In this document: in pieces, positions 51,149 to 62,075 of the stretch
How the letters are laid out: every line of letters starts with the position of its first letter
Position numbering within the stretch: the stretch's first letter is position 1
Assembly: GCF_008107625.1 (NCBI RefSeq)
Contig: NZ_SDKK01000019.1
Coordinates: forward strand, 31,487-95,486
From: Zoogloea oleivorans
GTDB lineage: Bacteria; Pseudomonadota; Gammaproteobacteria; Burkholderiales; Rhodocyclaceae
Length of the DNA: 64,000 bases
Reading direction: 5' to 3'
Translations under genes and position numbers: made by a program
The notes under the pieces: generated by a model
The model's input: only the letters and a program-made list of their open reading frames with translations
Databases searched by the model: none
Told to the model about the DNA's origin: nothing

Positions 51149-51475
51149 TCAGCTCTCCTGAGACACCTTTGAACAGGCCGGACGACCGGATACGGGACGC
51201 GGATTGACCAAAGCAATCCACCCGTCCGCCCGGGGGCCAGGCCGTCAGGCACCGGGTCCTCCCGGAACGGGTTCGCGATACTACCGCATCGCAACAAAAC
51301 CGGGAGTCCGGATGCGCAGGGCACGGGAAATGCGGAGCCGCCTACCGGAACCTTCAGGACTAGAAAGGCGATCTGCAAGGCAGGGCGGAGTTACAATGCG
51401 CCCTTGCCCATAACCAACGACACCCCGGCCCGAATAACGCCGAGCCGGTGCATTCTCGCCATCGAACTGCTGCCA
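51149..51475. other. divergent intergenic region between kup and the GGDEF/EAL gene, no gene seen
   Basis: 327 bases. Small inverted repeats GGATTG-N7-CAATCC (51201-51219), CCGGG-TCCT-CCCGG (51252-51265) and GCGAT-N8-ATCGC (51274-51291) occur; TACAAT at 51392-51397 could be a -10 for the rightward gene but lacks a good -35. The coding frame opens at TTG 51404, but the supported start is ATG 51476. Confidence 0.5.
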
Positions 51476-54400
51476 ATGTCTCCGACCCAGCTACGAGCAA
51501 TGGCAGGAATCACCGTTGCCTACGCGCTTTGCGGTCTGATTGCCCTTCACATGGCAATCCCGCCCGGCTATGTTGCGCCACTCTATCCCTCGGCCGGGAT
51601 CGCCCTCGCCGGCCTGCTGATATATGGCAACCGGATCTGGCCGGCAATTTTTCTGGGCGCCGTCCTGACCAACATCGAAGCGGTTCTGCGCTCCGGACTC
51701 GGGGGGCAAAACTGGATAATGCCCCTGTGCGTCGGTAGCGGCGCCGCCCTGCAGGCCCTGGCCGGAGCGGCCCTCGCCAGGCGCTGGATCGGCTTTCCCA
51801 ATGCCCTCGATACAGCCGGCGCGATTCTGCGCTTCCTGTTTGCTGCAGCGCCAATCAGTTGCGTAATCAGCGCGAGCATTGGCGTCGGCACCCTCACCCT
51901 TCTCGGCGCAATTCCCCTGGATGAAGCAGCCTTCAGCTGGTGGAACTGGTGGGCCGGCGACGCTATCGGCATCCTCATCGCCGCCCCCCTGACCTTCGTC
52001 TTCTTTGGTCTTCCCCGCAGGGACTGGGCGCCACGCCGACTGGCCCTCGCCCTGCCCCTGGTGGTCGCCCTTGTCCTGCTGATCGGACTTGAGGTCCAGG
52101 TCGGCACATGGGAACAACAACGCCTGCAATCCCGCTTCGAACGGGACGCCCGCTACCTTTCCAGCCTGCTGCGCACACGCTTCTCCGATTATCTCGACGT
52201 GCTCCAGTCCACCGAACGCGTGATGGTGGCCGCCCCCGCCATGGACAACGACAGTTTCCAGCAGTTTGGGGCGCCGTGGCTGTCAAGATTTGGCGGGCTG
52301 CAGGCCATCGGCTGGATTCCACGCGTACCCACGGAGCAGCGCGCCGTTCTCGAAGCCACGGCCCGCGCCAACGATGTCACCCGCGACTTCATGATCCGCG
52401 ATCGCGGCAGTGACAACCAGCTGTCCGCAGCCAGTCCGCAGCCCGAGTACTACCCGATCCGCTACATCACCCCCCTTGAACCCAACCGAAGAGCCCTCGG
52501 GGTCAACGTTCTGACCATCCCGGCCGCCGCAGAAGCAATCCCGCGGACCCTTGCCAAAGGCAAAGCGTCGGCAACCCGCGCCTTCGAACTGACCCAGGAA
52601 ACCCAGGGCAAACTCGGTGTGGTCGTGTATCAGCGCACCAGCCCCGCCGTACCCGCAGAAGCGGGCAAACCGGACGGCCTGGTATTCGTCGCCCTGCGTA
52701 TCGAAGATGCCATCAACGGTGCCCTGCGAGGGCATGTCATTGATGGCATCGGCTATTGCCTGTCGGACATCACCACAGAGCAGCCCGGGAGACAACGCCT
52801 CGCGGGGCTGGCCAACTGTCCGGAGCAGGACAAACCAGGCGCTGGCGGCCTGACGCCATGGGTGGAAATCTTCGACTTCGCCGGCCGGACCTGGGCCATC
52901 CACCTCGTGGCAGAACCAGGCTACGCAGCGTACTACCGGGGCTGGGAGGCCTGGACGCTGCTTGCCATCGGCCTGCTCAGCATCGGTACACTCGGCGCCT
53001 TCCTGCTGACCACCACCGGCCACGCCCGTCGCGTCGAGGAACTGGTACACCTGCGCACTGCCGAGCTGGCCGATGCCGGGCGGCGCCTGAGCGCCCAGCA
53101 GGCCATCCTGACCCACGCTGAACGCATTGCCCGACTGGGCAGCTGGGAAGCCGACTCGGTCACCGGACAGGGCCACTGGTCAAGCGAGCTGTACCGGATC
53201 CTGGGCATCCCGGCCGTCGATGACAGCAACCTCTCACGCCTGATCACGGCCATCCATCCGGATGACCGGGCCCGCCTGCAGGACGCCCTGCTCGACGTGG
53301 AGCGCGGACTCACCAGCACCAGCCTCGACATTCGCCTGCCTGACCGCAACGACGGCAGCGAGCGGCGCATCGTCCACTTCACCATCGAAGCGACCTCCTG
53401 CCGTGACGGCACCCAAACCCTGCGCGGAACCGTCCAGGACGTTACCGACAGCCGTGCTGCCGAAGCCCACATCCATTACCTGGCCCACTACGACACCCTC
53501 ACCGGCCTGCCCAACCGCAGCCTGTGGATCAGCCGCGCCGAACAGGCCCTCGCCTTCGCCCGGCGCAACAAGCTGCGCGTGGGCGTCCTGTTCCTCGATC
53601 TCGACAACTTCAAGAAAATCAACGACACCCTTGGCCACCCTGTCGGCGACCGCCTGCTGTCGGCAGCCGCCCACCGCCTGTCCCTGTGCCTGCGGGAAGA
53701 AGACGTACTGGCCCGACTGGGCGGTGACGAATTCGTCGTGCTGCTGCCCCAGCTTACCCGTGCCGACGATGCCGCCACCGTCGCGCGCAAGCTGCTCGCC
53801 AGCCTGACCCGCCCGTTCGACATCGACGGGCAGGAGCTGACCGTTTCCACCAGCATCGGCATCGCCCTCTATCCGGGCAACGGCGCCGACGTGGACGTAC
53901 TGCTCAAGCATGCCGACACCGCCATGTACGATGCCAAAAACGAGGGGCGCAACGACTTCCGCTTCTTCACGCCGGACATGAACAGCCGGGCCTATGCCCG
54001 CCTGATGATCGAAAACGCCCTGCGCCGGGCCATCGAGCGGAACGAACTGGTGCTCGAATACCAGCCTCAGTGGGCAATGCCCGAACAACGCCTGATCGGC
54101 GTCGAAGCCCTGGTGCGCTGGGACAACCCCGAACGGGGGCGCATCTCGCCCAACGACTTCATTCCGGTGGCAGAAGAAACCGGCCTGATCCAGAGCATCG
54201 GCGACTGGGTACTCAACGAAGCCTGCCGGCAGCAGGCCGAATGGCAGGCCGCAGGGCTCCCGCCGCTGACCGTCGCAGTGAATATCTCTGCGCTGCAATT
54301 CCGCAAACCGGGCTTTGTAGACCGGGTTCGCCAGGCTTTCACTGAAAGCGGCGTGTCGCCCCACACATTCGAACTGGAACTCACCGAAAGCGCCCTGATG

Positions 54401-54781
54401 CAACCGAGCGCCGAAACCGAACATCAGTTTGCCACCCTTCGCGGCATGGGCCTCGGGCTCGCCCTGGACGACTTCGGCACCGGCTATTCCAGCCTGTCCT
54501 ACCTCAAGCGCCTGCCCCTCACCCGGCTGAAGATCGACCGTTCCTTCGTGCAGGATCTGCCCGGCGATCCGGAAGACGCCGCCATTGCCGCCGCGACCCT
54601 GTCCATCGCCCGCGACCTGGGCCTCGAAGTGGTGGCCGAAGGCGTCGAAACCGAAGCCCAGCGCGATTTTCTGCTCGCCCGCCAATGCCACATCATGCAG
54701 GGCTTCCTGCTTGGCCGGCCGATGCCCGGGGCCGGCATCACCCACCTGCTGCAGGACGAGGCCCGCCGCAGCGTGGCCTAA
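51476..54781 (+). CDS. MASE1-CHASE-PAS-GGDEF-EAL cyclic-di-GMP turnover protein
   Basis: Membrane-bound dual-domain enzyme of about 1101 residues. In order: MASE1-like membrane sensor (about 5-215, LYPSAGIALAGLLIYG), periplasmic CHASE domain (about 245-450, QAIGWIPRVPTEQR), a membrane helix, PAS (about 520-645, ARLGSWEADS), GGDEF (active motif GGDEF 749-753 with inhibitory I-site REED five residues before it) and EAL (877-879 in GVEALVRWD, with DDFGTGYSSLSYLK). Both catalytic motifs are intact, so either or both activities are possible. Start ATG 51476 preferred over TTG 51404. It ends in a 4-base convergent overlap with the LuxR regulator gene. Confidence 0.93.
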   Translation: MSPTQLRAMAGITVAYALCGLIALHMAIPPGYVAPLYPSAGIALAGLLIYGNRIWPAIFLGAVLTNIEAVLRSGLGGQNWIMPLCVGSGAALQALAGAALARRWIGFPNALDTAGAILRFLFAAAPISCVISASIGVGTLTLLGAIPLDEAAFSWWNWWAGDAIGILIAAPLTFVFFGLPRRDWAPRRLALALPLVVALVLLIGLEVQVGTWEQQRLQSRFERDARYLSSLLRTRFSDYLDVLQSTERVMVAAPAMDNDSFQQFGAPWLSRFGGLQAIGWIPRVPTEQRAVLEATARANDVTRDFMIRDRGSDNQLSAASPQPEYYPIRYITPLEPNRRALGVNVLTIPAAAEAIPRTLAKGKASATRAFELTQETQGKLGVVVYQRTSPAVPAEAGKPDGLVFVALRIEDAINGALRGHVIDGIGYCLSDITTEQPGRQRLAGLANCPEQDKPGAGGLTPWVEIFDFAGRTWAIHLVAEPGYAAYYRGWEAWTLLAIGLLSIGTLGAFLLTTTGHARRVEELVHLRTAELADAGRRLSAQQAILTHAERIARLGSWEADSVTGQGHWSSELYRILGIPAVDDSNLSRLITAIHPDDRARLQDALLDVERGLTSTSLDIRLPDRNDGSERRIVHFTIEATSCRDGTQTLRGTVQDVTDSRAAEAHIHYLAHYDTLTGLPNRSLWISRAEQALAFARRNKLRVGVLFLDLDNFKKINDTLGHPVGDRLLSAAAHRLSLCLREEDVLARLGGDEFVVLLPQLTRADDAATVARKLLASLTRPFDIDGQELTVSTSIGIALYPGNGADVDVLLKHADTAMYDAKNEGRNDFRFFTPDMNSRAYARLMIENALRRAIERNELVLEYQPQWAMPEQRLIGVEALVRWDNPERGRISPNDFIPVAEETGLIQSIGDWVLNEACRQQAEWQAAGLPPLTVAVNISALQFRKPGFVDRVRQAFTESGVSPHTFELELTESALMQPSAETEHQFATLRGMGLGLALDDFGTGYSSLSYLKRLPLTRLKIDRSFVQDLPGDPEDAAIAAATLSIARDLGLEVVAEGVETEAQRDFLLARQCHIMQGFLLGRPMPGAGITHLLQDEARRSVA

Positions 54782-55722
54782 GCCTCGGCGCCCCCGCCTG
54801 TGCGAATGCGCGCCATGGCGACAGACGCCGCGGCCGTCCGGTTTTCGACCCCCAGCTTGGTGAACACGTGCTCCAGGTGCTTGTTCACCGTACGCGGGCT
54901 GGAACCGAGGATTTCACCGATATCCGGGCTGGTCTTGCCCTTGATCACCCAGTAGAGCACCTCGGCCTCACGCGTGGTCAGGCGAAAGGCGGCGATCAGC
55001 GCATCAATCACCGCCGCGTCCGACTCCTCCCGCAGGCTCAGCAGCCACTCATCCTCGCCGGTCCGTTCGTGCAGGGTGAAGATCAGCCGCTTCGCCCCCT
55101 GGTTAATGTACAGAGGCGGAAAATCCCGGCCTTCGTGACGCGCCCGGCTCGATTCCTGGACCCACGCCATCACCGCCGGCGGCGCGTTGTCCTCCGGCTG
55201 GCCCTCGAAATAATCCTTCATCAGCTTTCTGGCCAGCGGCGTCTGCCACACCACCCGTCCGCTGTCGGGGCGCAACGCCAGCGTGGCCTGGCCAAAGGCA
55301 TCCAGCGCGCTGCGCGCCTGCTTCATGAGGCGGGCGCTCTGCATGTGGGCGGCGATGCGGGCCAGCACTTCCTGCGGGCGGATCGGCTTGGTCACGTAAT
55401 CCGCACCACCGGCGTCGAAGGCGGCCACCACGTGCTCGGTTTCGGTGAGGCCGGTCATGAAGACAATCGGAATGTGCCGGGTGGTGAAATCCGCCTTCAG
55501 GCGCCGGGCGACTTCGAAGCCGTCCATGCCCGGCATCATCGCGTCGAGCAGGATCACATCCGGCACGCTGTGGCGCGCCCGCTGCAGGGCCGTTTCACCG
55601 TTGGTGGCGACAAGCACCGTGTAGCCGGATTCGTCGAGGGCGTCGTGGAGCACCGAAAGGTTCTCGGGGATGTCGTCCACAATCAGCACGAGGTCGGCGT
55701 TGAGCCGGTCAAAATCAAGCAT
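54778..55722 (-). CDS. LuxR-type response regulator (receiver + middle domain + HTH)
   Basis: 314 residues. Receiver with acidic pair DD (16-17), phosphoacceptor D60 (ILLDAMMPGMDG) and KPIRPQEVL; a middle region (about 135-240) that looks like a small PAS-like module (DSGRVVWQTPLARKLM, WLLSLREES); and a GerE/LuxR HTH (about 248-305, LTTREAEVLYWVIKGKTSPDIGEIL). ATG 55722 overlaps the end of the transporter-kinase gene by 8 bases, so it is its likely partner. The pairing of a transporter-fused kinase with a LuxR-type regulator recalls CrbS/CrbR. Target genes are not evident. Confidence 0.9.
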   Translation of the reverse strand: MLDFDRLNADLVLIVDDIPENLSVLHDALDESGYTVLVATNGETALQRARHSVPDVILLDAMMPGMDGFEVARRLKADFTTRHIPIVFMTGLTETEHVVAAFDAGGADYVTKPIRPQEVLARIAAHMQSARLMKQARSALDAFGQATLALRPDSGRVVWQTPLARKLMKDYFEGQPEDNAPPAVMAWVQESSRARHEGRDFPPLYINQGAKRLIFTLHERTGEDEWLLSLREESDAAVIDALIAAFRLTTREAEVLYWVIKGKTSPDIGEILGSSPRTVNKHLEHVFTKLGVENRTAAASVAMARIRTGGGAEA

Positions 55723-58700
55723 GGCGGGCTTTTTCCAGCAGGGGCGGAATGGCGTCGAGACGGAAATTGCGGGTCAGGTCACGCACTTCGACCACGAAGC
55801 GCGCGTAAGCCGGGTCGGCCGCCTCGATCTCGGCGAGGCGAGCCAGAATGCCCTTCACGTAACCCAGCTCGACCTGATGGGCCAGCGGCCCGAGCAGGGA
55901 CGCAGGCGGATACACCAGATCGGCGGGCATCGGCGCAACAGGCCTCTGCTGATCCGCCTCCAGCCATTCGAGGCCAAGACGCTGGCCGATCCAGTCGAGC
56001 AGTTGTGCTACCTGCACCGGCTTGAGAATGAAGTCGTGCTCGCCGATGCCCAGTGCACTGTTGTCGTTGTTGAGGCCCCGCTCGTAAGCATTGGCCGAAA
56101 TGATCGCCACCGGCGTGGTGGCAAACTCGCCGGCCCGGATGCGCCGGATCGCCTCCCAGCCGTCCATGCCCGGCATGGCCAGATCCATGAAAACCAGATC
56201 CGGGCGAAAGTCGGGCAGCACCGCCAGGCAGTCTTCCCCCGACGAAGCCTGTGCCAGCACAAAGCCGAGGGGTTCCAGCAAGGTGATCAGGAATTCCCGG
56301 TCCACCCGCTCGTTGTCCACAATGAGAATCCGCCGCCGCTCGCCCCGATAGCCAACAAGGTTCTTGCGCGGCAGCTCGCGGGCCGCCAGTTCGCCGCGCA
56401 CCTGGGGCAGGAAGAGCCGCACACGGAAGGTGCTGCCAAGCCCTGGCTCGCTGCTGGCGGTCAGCTCGCCGCCCATCACGTCGGCGAACATGCGGCTGAT
56501 GGTCAGGCCCAGCCCGGCCCCACTCGCCCCCTGAGCCGAAGTGCCGCGGGAAAAAGGATCGAAAATGCGCTCCATTTCGGCAGGTGAAATCCCCGGCCCC
56601 GAATCCTCGATCTCGAAAGTGGCCATCTCCATGCGGTAGGCCAGACGCAGGCTGATGCGGCCACGGGCGGTGAACTTCACCGCGTTGCCAAGCAGGTTGA
56701 TGAGGATCTGGCGCAGCCGCTTTTCGTCGGCACGCACGATGGGCGGGATCTCACCCTTGGGCGCGAAGCAGAACACCAACCCCTTGTTGCGTGCCTGCAG
56801 TTCGAACATGCCGACGATCTGCTGCATGAAATCGGCAAAATCCAGCGGCTTCACATCAAGGGTCAGCTTGCCGCCCTCGATCCGTGCGATGTCCAGCGTG
56901 CCCTCGATGACCGACAGCAGATGATCGCCACTGCGCCGGATCACGTTGATCGCCTGACGCCGGTGCACCGGGATTGAATCATCCCCATCGAGGATCTGCG
57001 CGTAGCCAAGGATGCTGTTGAGCGGCGTGCGCAGTTCGTGGCTGATCGCCGTGATGTAACGGCTCTTGGCCTGGTTGGCCAGATCGGCGGCCTGCTTGGC
57101 TTGCTGCAGTTGCTCGTCGGTACGCCGGTGGGAATCGATCTCCTTCATCAGCAGGTGGGTCTGGCGGTTGGACTCCTCCTGCGCCACCTGGCGGCTCTTG
57201 TGGGTCAGCACCAGCCACCACACCACCAGCCCGGACAGCAGCAGCAAGGCCGCGTAGCCCTTCAGAAAAGCCAGGCGCATGGCCGGGCCGAACGCTTCAG
57301 CGCTGTCGCCGAGCAGGCTCAGGCCCTGGTAATGGAGCAACCACACCAGCAACGCCAGGCCCGGGGCAATCACGCCCATCAGCAGCAGGTAATGGCCGAG
57401 CCCGGTTTCCAGGTAAGGCCACACTGACGGCGGCAGGATCCGGCGCATGGCCCCCGACCACTGGGCCGACAGGCGCGCTTCGGGCTTGCACAGATCGTTG
57501 CAGCGGGCATCCAGCGAGCAGCACAGGGAGCAGATGTCGCCCTGATAGGCCGGGCAGCGGGCCAGATCGTCGGCCTCGTACTCCCGTTCGCAAATCACGC
57601 ACTGGCGGATCGCCGCGCCACCGGGCGCAGGCTTCCTGGCGATGTAGTAACGCCCGCCGGTCGCCCAGGCGATCAGCGGCGCGGTGACGAAAGCCGTAAC
57701 CAGCGCAATCAGCGCCGAGAAAGCCTGGGCACTCTCGCCAAACAACCCCATGTAGGCCGACACCGACAACAGCGAGGCGATGCCCATCGCGCCAACGCCC
57801 ACCGGATTGACGTCGTAGAGGTGCGCCCGCTTGAACTCGATGCCCGGCGGCGACAGGCCCAGCGGCTTGTTGATGACCAGATCGGCCACCACCGCCATCA
57901 TCCACGAGATGGCTACGTTGGCGTACAGGCCGAGCACCTTGCCGATGGCCTGAAACACGTCGAGTTCCATCAGCACCAGGGCGATCAACGTATTGAAAAC
58001 CACCCACACAACCCGCCCCGGATGGCTGTGGGTAAGCCGCGCAAAGAAGTTCGACCAGGCCAGCGAGCCGGCGTAGGCATTGGTCACATTGATCTTGAGC
58101 TGCGAGATGACCACGAACAGGGCCGTCGCCCCCACCGCCCAGTGCAGGTTCGGAAAGACGTATTCGTAGGCCGCCAGGTACATCTGGTTCGGGTCCACGG
58201 CGCGCTCCGCCGGCACCGAATTGCTGATCGCCAGGTAGGCCAGCAGCGCCCCGCCGAGCATCTTGACCACCCCCAGCACCACCCAGCCGGGCCCGCCCAG
58301 CAGCACACCCATCCACCACCGGCGAGCGGTGGCGGGCGTCTTCTCGGGCATGAAGCGCAGGTAGTCAGCCTGCTCGCCCATCTGGGTGATCAGCGCGATG
58401 CCGACGGTGAGCGCCGCCCCGAAGGCGTGAATATTGAAACCCGCCCCGGCGCCGTGCTCGCCGCCGTAGCCGCTGATGCTGGAGAGGATGTCCGGCCGCT
58501 CGCGGAACACGAAAATGTAGGGCACCACCAGCATCAGCAGCCACAGGGGCTGAGTCAGTATCTGCAAACGGCTGATCGCCGTTACCCCGTGAGTGACCAG
58601 CGGAATCACCACGATGGCGCACAACATATAGCCCCAGGCGGGCGGAATGTCGAAGGCGAGATCCAGCGCGTAGGCCATGATCGCCGCTTCGAGGGCAAAA

Positions 58701-59122
58701 AAGATGAAGGTGAACGAGGCGTAAACCAGCGAGGTCAGTGTGGACCCGATATAGCCAAAGCCCGCGCCGCGGGTCAGCAGATCCATGTCCACGCCATAGC
58801 GGGCGGCATAGTGGCTGATCGGCAGGCCGGCCAGAAAGATGATCAGGCCGGTCGCAAGAATCGCCCAGAAGGCATTGATGAAACCGTAATCCACCAGCAG
58901 GGTCGCCCCCACCGCTTCCAGCACCAGGAAGGACGCCACGCCGAAGGCCGTGTTGGCCACCCGCAGCTCGGACCAACGCCGGAAGCTGCGCGGCGTGAAG
59001 CGCAGCGCGTAATCCTCGATGGTTTCCCGCGCCACCCAGGTGTTGTAGTCGCGCCGGACCTTGACAACCCGCTGAATGGCCTCCGGTTCGGTGGGCGCGG
59101 CGGCACGTCCTGCGTCGCTCAC
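55715..59122 (-). CDS. transporter-fused hybrid histidine kinase (NCS1-like permease + Cys-rich linker + HisKA/HATPase + receiver)
   Basis: 1135 residues. Residues about 35-490 form a 12-segment LeuT-fold transporter domain most like NCS1 purine/cytosine permeases. A Cys-rich segment follows (C508, C511, C523, C531, C534, C535, C541, C545), zinc-ribbon-like. Two more membrane helices (about 570-650), then HisKA with phospho-His H695 in ISHELRTPLNS, HATPase with NLLGNAVKF and DSGPGIS, a receiver with D980 (VFMDLAMPGMDG), and a C-terminal helical tail. GTG start at 59122 forms a GTGA overlap with pilR. Likely senses or transports a nitrogen-containing solute; ligand unknown. All kinase and receiver residues are intact. 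Confidence 0.9.
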   Translation of the reverse strand: MSDAGRAAAPTEPEAIQRVVKVRRDYNTWVARETIEDYALRFTPRSFRRWSELRVANTAFGVASFLVLEAVGATLLVDYGFINAFWAILATGLIIFLAGLPISHYAARYGVDMDLLTRGAGFGYIGSTLTSLVYASFTFIFFALEAAIMAYALDLAFDIPPAWGYMLCAIVVIPLVTHGVTAISRLQILTQPLWLLMLVVPYIFVFRERPDILSSISGYGGEHGAGAGFNIHAFGAALTVGIALITQMGEQADYLRFMPEKTPATARRWWMGVLLGGPGWVVLGVVKMLGGALLAYLAISNSVPAERAVDPNQMYLAAYEYVFPNLHWAVGATALFVVISQLKINVTNAYAGSLAWSNFFARLTHSHPGRVVWVVFNTLIALVLMELDVFQAIGKVLGLYANVAISWMMAVVADLVINKPLGLSPPGIEFKRAHLYDVNPVGVGAMGIASLLSVSAYMGLFGESAQAFSALIALVTAFVTAPLIAWATGGRYYIARKPAPGGAAIRQCVICEREYEADDLARCPAYQGDICSLCCSLDARCNDLCKPEARLSAQWSGAMRRILPPSVWPYLETGLGHYLLLMGVIAPGLALLVWLLHYQGLSLLGDSAEAFGPAMRLAFLKGYAALLLLSGLVVWWLVLTHKSRQVAQEESNRQTHLLMKEIDSHRRTDEQLQQAKQAADLANQAKSRYITAISHELRTPLNSILGYAQILDGDDSIPVHRRQAINVIRRSGDHLLSVIEGTLDIARIEGGKLTLDVKPLDFADFMQQIVGMFELQARNKGLVFCFAPKGEIPPIVRADEKRLRQILINLLGNAVKFTARGRISLRLAYRMEMATFEIEDSGPGISPAEMERIFDPFSRGTSAQGASGAGLGLTISRMFADVMGGELTASSEPGLGSTFRVRLFLPQVRGELAARELPRKNLVGYRGERRRILIVDNERVDREFLITLLEPLGFVLAQASSGEDCLAVLPDFRPDLVFMDLAMPGMDGWEAIRRIRAGEFATTPVAIISANAYERGLNNDNSALGIGEHDFILKPVQVAQLLDWIGQRLGLEWLEADQQRPVAPMPADLVYPPASLLGPLAHQVELGYVKGILARLAEIEAADPAYARFVVEVRDLTRNFRLDAIPPLLEKARHA

Positions 59123-60492
59123 TCCTTCATGCCCAGGCGCTCCAGTCGGTAGCGCAATGAACGGAAGGTCACGCCAAGGCTGCGCGCTGCCGCCGTGCGG
59201 TTGCCGCCGGATTTCTCGAGGGCGTCTTCGATGGCCTTGCGTTCCATCTCGTCCAGGTAGTCCTGCAAATCTGTTCCGCCCGGCGTGGTGGGCGCCACAT
59301 GGCTCGCCTCACCCATGTCGGCCGGATCGAGAAGCAGGTCATCGGCCTGGATGAGTTCGCCGCTCGACAGGGCCATGGCCCGTTCGAGGATGTTTTCAAG
59401 CTCCCGGACATTGCCGGGAAAGGAACATCCCATCAACGCCTGCATGGCCCCCGGGCTGAGGCGCGCGGGCGGCAGGCCCGACGACTCCGCCAGCCTGCCG
59501 AGCAGAATCCCGGCCAGTTGGGGGATGTCCTCGCTGCGCTCGCGCAGGGCCGGCATACGCAGTTCGATCACGTTGAGGCGATAGAACAGATCCTGGCGAA
59601 AGCGCGAGGCCTCGACCATGGCCTTCAGATTCTGGTGGGTTGCACTGAGGATGCGCACATCCACGGCCGTTTCAGCCGTATCGCCGAGTCGACGGAATTT
59701 CTTCTCCTGGATCGCCCGCAGCAGCTTGACCTGCATCGGCAGGGGCAGATCGCCCACTTCATCGAGAAACAGGGTGCCACCGTGAGCGGCCTGAAAAAAC
59801 CCCTCCCGATCGCAGTCGGCACCGGTAAAAGCGCCCTTCCTGGCCCCGAAGAACTCGCTCTCCATCAGATTCTCGGGGATTGCCCCGCAATTCACGGCAA
59901 CGAAGGGGGCTGCCGCCCGCGGGCCGAGGTCGTGAATCATCCGTGCCGCGCGCTCCTTGCCGCTGCCCGACTCGCCCGAAATGAACACCGGCGCCTGGCT
60001 CCTGGCCAGCTTTTCGATCATCGAGCGCACCTGGACCATCGCCGATGAATCACCGATCAGACTTGACGTGTCCTTGCGCAGACGTTCGTCCTCGCTGGAC
60101 GAAACGGAAAACACCGACTTGACCAGCGCACGCAATTGGTCGATGGACACCGGCTTGGAAAGATAATCGAAGGCCCCGGCCTTGAGCGCCGTCACCGCGT
60201 TATCCATGCTGCCGAAGGCCGTGATCACCGCCACCGGCAGGTCGCGGATGTTCTCGGCAATGTAGCGCACCAGGTCGAGCCCGTTGCCGTCGGGCAGGCG
60301 CATGTCGGTGAGGCACAAGCGGTAGCGCTTTTCATCGAGCAGGCGACGGGCGTCCGCCAGGTTGGCCGCCCCGTCACTGACCAGCCCCAGACGCAAGAGG
60401 GTGAGTTCAAGCAATTCGCGGATGTCATCCTCGTCATCGACGATAAGCACATCCGGCCCGCCAGGGCGAGCCCGCCTTTCATTCTGGATCAT
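59119..60492 (-). CDS. pilR: type IV pilus response regulator PilR (sigma-54 activator)
   Basis: NtrC-type activator of pilin transcription with RpoN. 457 residues from ATG 60492, which makes an ATGA overlap with pilS; the frame extends to 60555 inside pilS. Receiver D63 (CLTDMRLPDGNG), Walker A GESGSGKE (173-180), GAFTGA loop (220-225), and a Fis-type HTH at the end (NRTAAARSLGVTFRSLRYRL). The stop overlaps the GTG of the transporter-kinase, so all four signalling genes are coupled. Confidence 0.95.
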   Translation of the reverse strand: MIQNERRARPGGPDVLIVDDEDDIRELLELTLLRLGLVSDGAANLADARRLLDEKRYRLCLTDMRLPDGNGLDLVRYIAENIRDLPVAVITAFGSMDNAVTALKAGAFDYLSKPVSIDQLRALVKSVFSVSSSEDERLRKDTSSLIGDSSAMVQVRSMIEKLARSQAPVFISGESGSGKERAARMIHDLGPRAAAPFVAVNCGAIPENLMESEFFGARKGAFTGADCDREGFFQAAHGGTLFLDEVGDLPLPMQVKLLRAIQEKKFRRLGDTAETAVDVRILSATHQNLKAMVEASRFRQDLFYRLNVIELRMPALRERSEDIPQLAGILLGRLAESSGLPPARLSPGAMQALMGCSFPGNVRELENILERAMALSSGELIQADDLLLDPADMGEASHVAPTTPGGTDLQDYLDEMERKAIEDALEKSGGNRTAAARSLGVTFRSLRYRLERLGMKE

Positions 60493-62075
60493 GGTTTGAC
60501 GTGTCCGATAATGCGAAAATGGGCACCAGGCAGTGCCGACGGCGCATGGCCGCACAACTCAAGCACTGCGCCATTGGCTTCGGCCAGCTCCCTGGCAATA
60601 TAAAGTCCCAGGCCGGTCCCTTTTGAATGAGTCGTAAAAAAGGGTTCGAAAACCTGCCCGCGGAGGCTTTCCGGAATACCGGAACCGTCGTCGGACACAT
60701 CCAGGGCCACACGACCGTCATCGAGCAGCTCGGCACTGATTTTTACCGCACCCGGCTGACCACTGCAATGTCGCCGGGCGTTGCCGACGAGATTCCACAG
60801 AATCTGCCGGAGATGGGCCCGGTCCATCGATATCTCGAGATCGGGTCGCACCGCGCTGACGACGATCCCCCGATCCACCCCCGCATCCGCCACCGAAAAC
60901 TCCTCGAGGAACTCTTCGACGAAGGCCGCCAGCGGCAGCGTTTCGGGCAGGGCCTCGTCGCGTCGGCCAAGGGCCAGCACGTCGCCCACCAGGCGGTCGA
61001 TGCGCTGGGCGTTGTTGCCGATGATGCGGATCAGCCGGGCCTGCATCTCGCTGCGCTTCTCGTCCATCAACAATTCGGCGGCCTGCGACACCGAGGCCAG
61101 CGGATTGCGGATCTCGTGGGCAATGCTGGCAGTCAGGCGCCCCAGTGCCGCCAGCTTGACCTGCTGGATCTGGCGATGGATGCGCCCGAAGTCTTCCAGG
61201 TAGATCAGCGTTTCATTGGCCTCGCCGGCAGGCAGGAAGCGCGCCAGCAGCATCATGCCGCTGCTGTCGGCGCGCACGCTGTGGGCCGAACTGCCCAGTT
61301 CGTCGCGCCGCTGCAATTCCCGCTCGAGGGCCGGCGCGCACTCCTTGAGCGTGCCGCCGTCGCGCAGGCCAGGGCCGAGCAGGGCAATGGCCTGGGGATT
61401 GAACTGGCGAATCACACCGCCCTCCCCGACCACCAGCACCCCGTCCTGCATGTCCTGGATGATCTGCCGGTTGAGACGCAACTGGTTGGCCAGATCGGTG
61501 CCCCGCTGGCGGGCCAGATCTTCGTTGGCGATGGCCCGCTGGGCCAGCAGGCGGGCCACCTGGGCGATGGCAAAGAAGCCGATGCAGGTGATGCCAACGG
61601 TGAAAAAATCCACCGACTCGCGCCCCGACAAAAAACGGAATCCGTTTTCCAGCAAGGCCGCCACCGACGCATAAGCCGCATAAAACAGCACCATGCGGCT
61701 CTGTCCGACCAGCCCGGCACCGGCCAGCGCAACCAGGATCAGGGTCGGAATCCCGCTGCGGTAACCGCCGCTGGCCCACATGATCAGGGTCAGCAGGGTG
61801 ATATCCACCAGCACCTGCACGGTTACCAGCCGGTTCGTGCCCATCAGCCGGGCCGCGTCGGGAAAACCCAGAATCAGCACGGCGGCAAGATAAGTAAACG
61901 CCGCGCCCACGAAGAGGATCGGTGAATCGCTCCCGAGTTGCAGCGAACGCCCCGCCACCAGGAACAGACCGGCAAGAACCAGGCGAAACAGGTTCAGGTA
62001 GCGCAGGGGCTCCGTACGGACAGCGCCGTCAGTAGAAGAAGAAGTGTCCCCAAATACCGCGCCGGCGATTTTCAC
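60489..62075 (-). CDS. pilS: type IV pilus sensor histidine kinase PilS
   Basis: Polar membrane kinase that partners PilR and senses pilin. 528 residues: six N-terminal membrane segments (about 25-190), a PAS domain (about 205-305, LNRQIIQDMQDGVLVVGEGG), H-box with H320 in SIAHEIRNPLASVSQAAELL, N-box NLVGNARRH and G-boxes DDGSGIPE and KGTGLGLYIA. GTG start at 62075 forms a GTGA overlap with the upstream PP0621-family gene. Confidence 0.95.
   Translation of the reverse strand: MKIAGAVFGDTSSSTDGAVRTEPLRYLNLFRLVLAGLFLVAGRSLQLGSDSPILFVGAAFTYLAAVLILGFPDAARLMGTNRLVTVQVLVDITLLTLIMWASGGYRSGIPTLILVALAGAGLVGQSRMVLFYAAYASVAALLENGFRFLSGRESVDFFTVGITCIGFFAIAQVARLLAQRAIANEDLARQRGTDLANQLRLNRQIIQDMQDGVLVVGEGGVIRQFNPQAIALLGPGLRDGGTLKECAPALERELQRRDELGSSAHSVRADSSGMMLLARFLPAGEANETLIYLEDFGRIHRQIQQVKLAALGRLTASIAHEIRNPLASVSQAAELLMDEKRSEMQARLIRIIGNNAQRIDRLVGDVLALGRRDEALPETLPLAAFVEEFLEEFSVADAGVDRGIVVSAVRPDLEISMDRAHLRQILWNLVGNARRHCSGQPGAVKISAELLDDGRVALDVSDDGSGIPESLRGQVFEPFFTTHSKGTGLGLYIARELAEANGAVLELCGHAPSALPGAHFRIIGHVKP

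Follow-up and report, generated by a model that had tools for sequence, protein, structure and literature searches.

A fusion of an NCS1-like permease domain to a hybrid histidine kinase as a putative sensor of urea or short-chain amides

A stretch of 64,000 nucleotides from Zoogloea oleivorans, here called the window, encodes a protein in which an NCS1-like permease domain is joined to a hybrid histidine kinase. From the sequences of the protein and its relatives we predict that it probably senses urea or a short-chain amide and switches on a urea-uptake operon via the adjoining LuxR-type regulator. Four things are observed: the fused architecture, the paired regulator, the linkage to urt, urease or formamidase genes, and a palindrome at urtA that accompanies the fusion gene. 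Since the relatives often lie beside urea-uptake or urease genes, a sensor of urea or of a small amide is the likely reading.

The fusion gene begins with a GTG codon at 59122 on the minus strand and encodes a protein of 1135 amino acids (Table 1). An earlier note on this DNA had claimed this frame, naming no strand, with a complete kinase and a receiver in it. The frame exists, the two phosphorylatable residues (H695 and D980) are where the note had placed them, and Pfam finds HisKA, HATPase_c and Response_reg; with a phosphoacceptor histidine in the HisKA domain and an aspartate in the receiver the protein is a hybrid histidine kinase. An HPt domain was not found by Pfam.

Table 1. Features of the fusion locus, in positions of the window.
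Feature	Residues	Positions	Strand	Basis
Fusion gene: NCS1-like permease domain, Cys-rich module and hybrid histidine kinase		55715..59122	-	open frame, Pfam, AlphaFold2 model of residues 1-691
NCS1-like LeuT-fold domain	35-500	57623..59020	-	Foldseek and VIA best = CodB, Mhp1; D-[FY]-x-R motif after TM6
Cys-rich, zinc-finger-like module	505-548	57479..57610	-	alignment of 112 sequences, model
Two further hydrophobic segments, Cys module to kinase	573-603 and 614-643	57194..57406	-	hydropathy
HisKA dimerisation/phosphoacceptor domain (H695)	685-751	56870..57070	-	Pfam PF00512, 2.1e-16
HATPase_c	799-905	56408..56728	-	Pfam PF02518, 2e-28
Receiver domain of the fusion (D980)	932-1043	55994..56329	-	Pfam PF00072, 6.4e-21
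REC-LuxR response regulator, 314 aa (D60)	REC 12-123, GerE 248-302	54778..55722	-	Pfam
PilR-like sigma54-activating response regulator, upstream neighbour		59119..60555	-	Pfam, sequence

The N-terminal domain was not identified by Pfam, NCBIfam or PDB sequence searches: residues 1-501 gave no Pfam match even at an E value of 10, so that the window protein does not reach the PF02133 cut-off, and nothing better than E = 0.24 against the PDB sequences. Because these searches came back empty, the NCS1 call was made from structure and from a sister family. An AlphaFold2 model of residues 1-691 (pLDDT 88, pTM 0.87) has as its closest solved structures CodB and Mhp1, both NCS1 transporters (Foldseek, VIA), at 15-17% identity in the structural alignments. 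The stand-alone sister P0121 (43% identical by tblastn) passes Pfam PF02133 with 38.4 bits (cut-off 23.5) and the sister P0234 with 36.7 bits, the only two of six scanned sisters to do so. A D-[FY]-x-R motif after TM6, derived from our alignment and not from the literature, is present in the window domain and in 8 of 10 aligned NCS1 proteins (it is missing in AllW and L216); EQADYLRF of the window protein aligns with TADFVRF of CodB.

In TM8, T278-T279-N280 of CodB align with K343-I344-N345 of the fusion. The Thr pair of CodB, like the Ser/Thr pair of Mhp1, is what we take to be the sodium-2 site. The fusion does not have this pair, which is complete in only four of the ten aligned NCS1 sequences and is no strict mark of the family. 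K343 is invariant in 112 sequences, and Lys343-Ile344 is also found in the stand-alone sisters. Since Lys343 replaces the presumed sodium-2 pair, the domain may work without sodium.

The earlier note had described the input as a LeuT-fold permease of the NCS1 type, different from the sodium/solute symporter (SSS) domains of CbrA and CrbS, and had proposed a profile search against both families. In the profile search PutP, of the SSS family, gave no significant match, though the match with CodB/AllW, of the NCS1 family, was weak (E = 0.009, 72 columns, probability 4.5%). Pairwise BLASTP of P0121 with CodB and with AllW gave no match. The identification itself was borne out by the model nearest CodB and Mhp1 and by the PF02133-passing sister, and the distinction from CbrA and CrbS holds by Pfam, without an SSS or STAC match, and by structure. 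Model and alignments thus support an NCS1-like domain that is sister to proteins passing PF02133, the window protein itself staying below that cut-off.

The module between permease and kinase contains eight cysteines (508, 511, 523, 531, 534, 535, 541 and 545). C508, C511, C531 and C534 are invariant in the 112 sequences, stand-alone proteins included; the other four are absent from the tail of stand-alone P0121, which has four cysteines there versus eight. In the AlphaFold2 model short strands are followed by a helix at 532-537, an arrangement which would resemble a treble-clef zinc finger and may bind zinc. Over the two hydrophobic segments that follow, the model draws a single long helix (574-690), on which we did not rely; an even number of membrane crossings would leave the kinase in the cytoplasm. 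A STAC domain was not matched by Pfam in residues 500-691, the Cys module and the hydrophobic segments being there instead. When the window fusion is compared with four distant fusions (P0241, P0253, P0325, P0356), the NCS1 part is 59-60% conserved versus 51-55% for the kinase core, which fits a fixed ligand.

The gene after the fusion, overlapping its end by 8 bases, encodes a LuxR-type response regulator with a REC domain and a C-terminal GerE/LuxR helix-turn-helix (Pfam). This is the downstream LuxR gene for which the earlier note had suggested a survey of genomes; a relative of it follows the fusion in 76 of 80 related loci. Two of the other four loci stop at a contig edge (L030, L073) and two, from Rhizobacter (L008, L009), lack the gene. 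In the Rhizobacter loci a pilin-like gene comes after the fusion in place of the regulator.

On the other side, the stop codon of a PilR-like gene overlaps the GTG start of the fusion. Within the 80 loci this neighbour is found only in the six of Zoogloea type (L001-L006); in Zoogloea-type genomes pilS/pilR-like genes (59119-62075, minus strand, in the window) precede the fusion where others have urea genes. A MASE1-CHASE-GGDEF-EAL gene (51404-54781, plus strand) converges on the regulator gene with a four-base overlap, and a relative occurs in each of the six Zoogloea-type loci. The window locus thus has pilSR-like genes adjoining and no urea gene nearby, which counts against a role in urea sensing.

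The fusion is not a chance event, since its architecture recurs: in 116 of the 120 best homologues (the best of at least 7999 candidates passing E = 0.001, in a search restricted to proteins of about the same length) this N-terminus is followed by the same three Pfam domains of kinase and receiver. Of 150 Pseudomonadota genomes drawn evenly, 18 contain the fusion when the window's own genome is counted (E < 1e-100), or 17 of 149 when it is left aside; of 120 genomes of the order, 22 contain it, the window's own again counted. With the N-terminal part as query, 535 records of a plasmid collection gave some match, 342 of them from Klebsiella and others from Sinorhizobium and further genera, and the laboratory strain Sinorhizobium meliloti 2011 has a homologue; the 535 records include stand-alone and weak matches, and some of the "plasmids" are of chromosome size. 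The records consulted give the fusions no more specific name than "ATP-binding protein", "hybrid sensor histidine kinase" or similar. In a tree of 49 sequences, which is unrooted and from which four loci without a usable row were left out, a branch with 100/100 support parts 12 stand-alone proteins from 37 fusions, as would fit a single fusion event. The stand-alone permeases of Klebsiella, Acinetobacter and Streptomyces are 42-46% identical to the window domain and are annotated as cytosine, allantoin or purine-cytosine permeases. Three fusion frames (L203, L204, L205) are longer, with 1329-1417 amino acids; in L203 and L205 a region close to the C-terminus also resembles regulators and may be an additional receiver.

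The neighbourhoods point to urea. The even draw of Pseudomonadota gave 19 non-self fusion genes, and within 1.5 kb of 16 of them lie UrtA (13) or urease genes (3), counting one UrtA cut by a contig end (L112) and one of only 39% identity (L119); two have neither within 1.5 kb (L117, L131), and the last ends at a contig edge (L122). Urease or urt genes lie near the fusion in 57 of the 80 related loci, 54 with urease and three with urtA, the urease genes mostly divergent from the fusion and within about 0.3 kb of it. The rest are the six Zoogloea-type loci with their pilSR-like genes and 17 with neither, which speak against urea, some of them being short contigs. The order-level sample gave UrtA (5), urease genes (7) or FmdA (1) at 13 of 20 new loci; the other seven, without urea genes in the 1.5-kb flanks, again count against it.

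All 11 annotated neighbourhoods opened from the plasmid collection contain urt and/or urease genes, and seven of them also a gene annotated as formamidase. The locus from Mitsuaria has urease genes; those from Burkholderia, Azospirillum, Klebsiella, Paracoccus, Methylobacterium, Chelatococcus and Paraburkholderia have urt and the formamidase-annotated gene (in one of them the ABC genes are annotated as HAAT family and match UrtA-E); those from Shinella and Roseomonas have urt; and that from Novosphingobium has urt and urease, the urease operon ending with the fusion. Two regions without annotation were searched by tblastn or with reference genes: Halomonas (L218) has urt, fmdA and an amidase, and in Acinetobacter (L217) none of the urea references matches over about 9 kb around the fusion, a finding against urea. 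On the Klebsiella plasmid pKP062-1 (L087) the fusion-urt-formamidase cluster lies near the heat-shock genes clpK and hsp20 and insertion sequences. In K. pneumoniae the urease operon ends with a stand-alone sister annotated as cytosine permease (L085:7944-9551, plus strand). This annotation is probably wrong; a putative urea or amide transporter is the better guess.

The second line of evidence is a palindrome. By dyad counting, TACG-N8-CGTA was found in 16 of 18 divergent urtA-fusion intervals; in 20 shuffles the maxima over all four-base dyads averaged 2.75 and never exceeded 5. It recurred in 5/5 and 4/5 of urtA-fusion intervals examined later. In the 80 loci it lies 76-163 bp upstream of each of the 14 urtA genes found (at least 45% identity). 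Eleven of these 14 sites read TACGCC..GGCGTA and three TACGCA. The regulator helix is (A/M)TVKKHLE in 10 of the 11 loci with the first form, L052 giving no motif match, and RTVNKHLE in the three with the second form and in the six Zoogloea-type loci. Site form and helix vary together, as expected of a co-changing protein-operator pair; by this comparison regulator and palindrome would be such a pair.

As there are no urea genes beside the window copy, what links it to urea is the palindrome at a urtA gene elsewhere in the assembly. On that other contig the genome's own urtA has the palindrome upstream (L100 14838-14853), in front of a same-strand urtABCDE-urease cluster. The whole genome of 5.68 Mb contains 14 such sites versus 122 for the pattern read backwards. 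Under a matrix made from 24 distinct sites outside the genus, all from urtA-fusion intervals, the urtA site scores best of the 14 (20.6 versus 15.0 for the next; source sites 15.7-24.8), and a 19-site matrix gave the same outcome (21.1 versus 15.2).

The palindrome also goes with the fusion gene from genome to genome. In a sample of 60 relatives, covering 30 urtA loci with four further urtA matches left out, it was present at 21 of the 22 urtA promoters from fusion-bearing genomes versus none of the 8 from genomes without the fusion (Fisher 1.5e-6), starting 96-129 bp upstream of urtA; the remaining genome, G191, carries it at another urtA copy that adjoins its fusion. In the order-level sample of 31 urtA loci, eight of whose genomes are also in the first sample and from which G296 and three weaker second copies were left out, the counts were 4 of 9 versus 0 of 22 (p = 0.004). 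Since the compared genomes share ancestry, these Fisher values overstate independence. The five order-level fusion genomes without the palindrome at their best-matching urtA count against the urea reading; three of them carry it at another urtA copy adjoining the fusion, and G228 and G229 show none. Also against it, none of 55 urease-fusion intervals contains the exact palindrome, 19 of them having it with at most one mismatch versus 2-7 in shuffles, and in Halomonas it lies upstream of fmdA rather than urtA. In Acinetobacter baumannii (L217:7159-13355), where a stand-alone permease is divergent from the fusion and its regulator, the palindrome TACGTTATTTTGCGTA lies between them.

From these observations we propose the following sequence of events. 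Urea or a small amide would occupy the NCS1 site and shift the LeuT-fold domain; the Cys module and the hydrophobic segments would relay this change to the helices of HisKA. Autophosphorylation would take place on H695, D980 would act as a tuning or relay site, and the phosphate would pass, directly or via D980, to D60 of the LuxR regulator. A dimer of the regulator would then bind the palindrome, which lies about 100 bp ahead of urtA, the candidate target site of the phosphorylated form being TACGCAATCTGACGTA, and activate urtABCDE, behind which the urease genes lie on the same strand in the window genome.

The same ligand and output are compatible with a different input signal: the fused domain might import urea or the amide, and the kinase might read the transport flux rather than the bound ligand. 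For CbrA a true transporter-receptor role has been proposed. The LeuT fold is predicted with good confidence, the transporter part is highly conserved, and the kinase-less sister proteins are presumably transporters. On the other hand, the urt-linked loci encode an ABC importer for urea right beside the fusion, and the ammonium receptor Ks-Amt5 is reported to bind without efficient translocation (PMC5764959). That Lys343-Ile344 is also present in the stand-alone sisters decides nothing here. We regard flux reading as possible but on the whole doubtful.

A second question is the ligand. Characterized NCS1 transporters carry nucleobases, hydantoins and allantoin, and the domain could sense such a related nitrogen compound (cytosine or uracil, allantoin, hydantoin, cyanate) that yields urea or ammonia; urt and urease genes would then be targets and no sign of the ligand. 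Besides urt, the Shinella locus contains hydantoinase/oxoprolinase genes, which tell against urea, and the Paracoccus locus contains genes of the xanthine dehydrogenase family. Yet urt, ure and fmdA are the neighbours that come back from locus to locus in the samples, formamidase and aliphatic amidase act on small amides and not on nucleobases, and a stand-alone sister sits inside the urease operon of K. pneumoniae, so that we judge this alternative unlikely. Nucleobases, hydantoins and thiamine, the ligands that the earlier note had suggested assaying, were therefore set aside as the first lead: neighbourhoods and palindrome point to urea or short-chain amides.

Less probable still is a general sensor of nitrogen status, for which urt and urease would be typical targets under nitrogen starvation. 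In its favor are sigma54-like elements facing both genes in many Comamonadaceae-type ureA-fusion intervals: with the sigma54 consensus, 45 of 55 intervals have a match of at least 8 of 10 positions on both strands, which is a raw count with no shuffle control. Against it, genomes without the fusion keep urtA, but none of the 24 distinct ones in the two samples has the palindrome at that gene, and with its 14 sites in the window genome the palindrome is rare, unlike the sites of a global regulon. In Comamonadaceae-type loci (L014, L016 and others) one -24/-12 element faces ureA and one the fusion; such elements at urease and fusion genes suggest that nitrogen status may gate the system in loci of this type. 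A GCA-N7-TGC dyad, enriched in 49 of 50 urease-linked intervals, was tried as operator and dropped, being reread as sigma54-like promoters facing both ways.

Membership in the CbrA/CrbS family of SSS/STAC transporter-kinases is very improbable and was rejected: the plan of LeuT-fold transporter plus kinase is the same, and a LuxR-type regulator is also the partner in CrbS/CrbR, but neither SSS (SLC5) nor STAC was found by Pfam, the best structures are CodB and Mhp1, and PutP gave no significant profile match, though that with CodB/AllW was weak too.

Sensing of urea or a small amide thus remains our preferred reading. Under it the fusion is a candidate urea receptor in the membrane that can be put to the test; its partner and its DNA site can be named, and a stand-alone sister allows transport to be set against sensing. 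By the same reading, the stand-alone relatives, annotated as permeases for cytosine or allantoin, may act on urea or small amides. A wider view, to which we give even chances, is that bacterial urea receptors of this kind form a widespread class that has been overlooked. An NCS1-derived domain, with an invariant Lys in TM8 in place of the Thr pair of CodB and a tail turned into a zinc-finger coupling module, would have joined a hybrid kinase in a single event; along with the LuxR partner and a TACG-N8-CGTA operator evolving in step, the fusion would have spread through Alpha-, Beta- and Gammaproteobacteria and Klebsiella plasmids as a switch for urea and formamide scavenging. About one in nine of the sampled Pseudomonadota genomes (17 of 149) has this NCS1-like kinase input.

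In open-access full text, outside of which most subscription journals lie, we found no description of the fusion and none of a comparable urea two-component system; the suggestion of the earlier note that the system is a candidate for an undescribed one therefore stands within that literature. There, transporter-histidine kinase fusions are reported from the SLC5 and Amt families, and an S-component fold also occurs in some kinases.

Among the fusion's relatives in fold, CodB and Mhp1 have no kinase and, besides the low identity in the structural alignments, CodB has Thr-Thr in TM8 where the fusion has Lys-Ile. The stand-alone permeases of Klebsiella, Acinetobacter and Streptomyces share the CxxC..CxxC tail and the Lys of TM8 with the fusion and likewise lack a kinase. 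The AraC-type regulator UreR is a urea-responsive activator of urea genes and differs in being a cytoplasmic one-component protein with no membrane receptor and no phosphorylation; UreR is the sole dedicated bacterial urea sensor known to us.

CrbS/CrbR of Vibrio and Pseudomonas resembles the system described here in having a hybrid kinase with a transporter-like input and a LuxR-type partner regulator. It differs in its SLC5-STAC input and in its role in acetate utilization and acs control (PMC5715377, PMC9100948). CbrA of Pseudomonas, called a rare transceptor (PMC13022988), is built as SLC5-STAC-PAS-kinase: its transporter domain, too, is fused N-terminally to a histidine kinase, but it has an SLC5/SSS domain, a STAC linker and histidine as ligand, where the fusion has the NCS1-like domain, the Cys module, a receiver and the linkage to urea or amides. 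In Ks-Amt5 of Kuenenia (PMC5764959) a transporter has likewise been joined to a histidine kinase and serves to sense a small nitrogen compound; the plan is shared, whereas the transporter is of the Amt family and the ligand is ammonium. By its plan the fusion belongs with the transporter-kinase fusions CbrA, CrbS and Ks-Amt5, to which it adds the NCS1-like domain as a further input.
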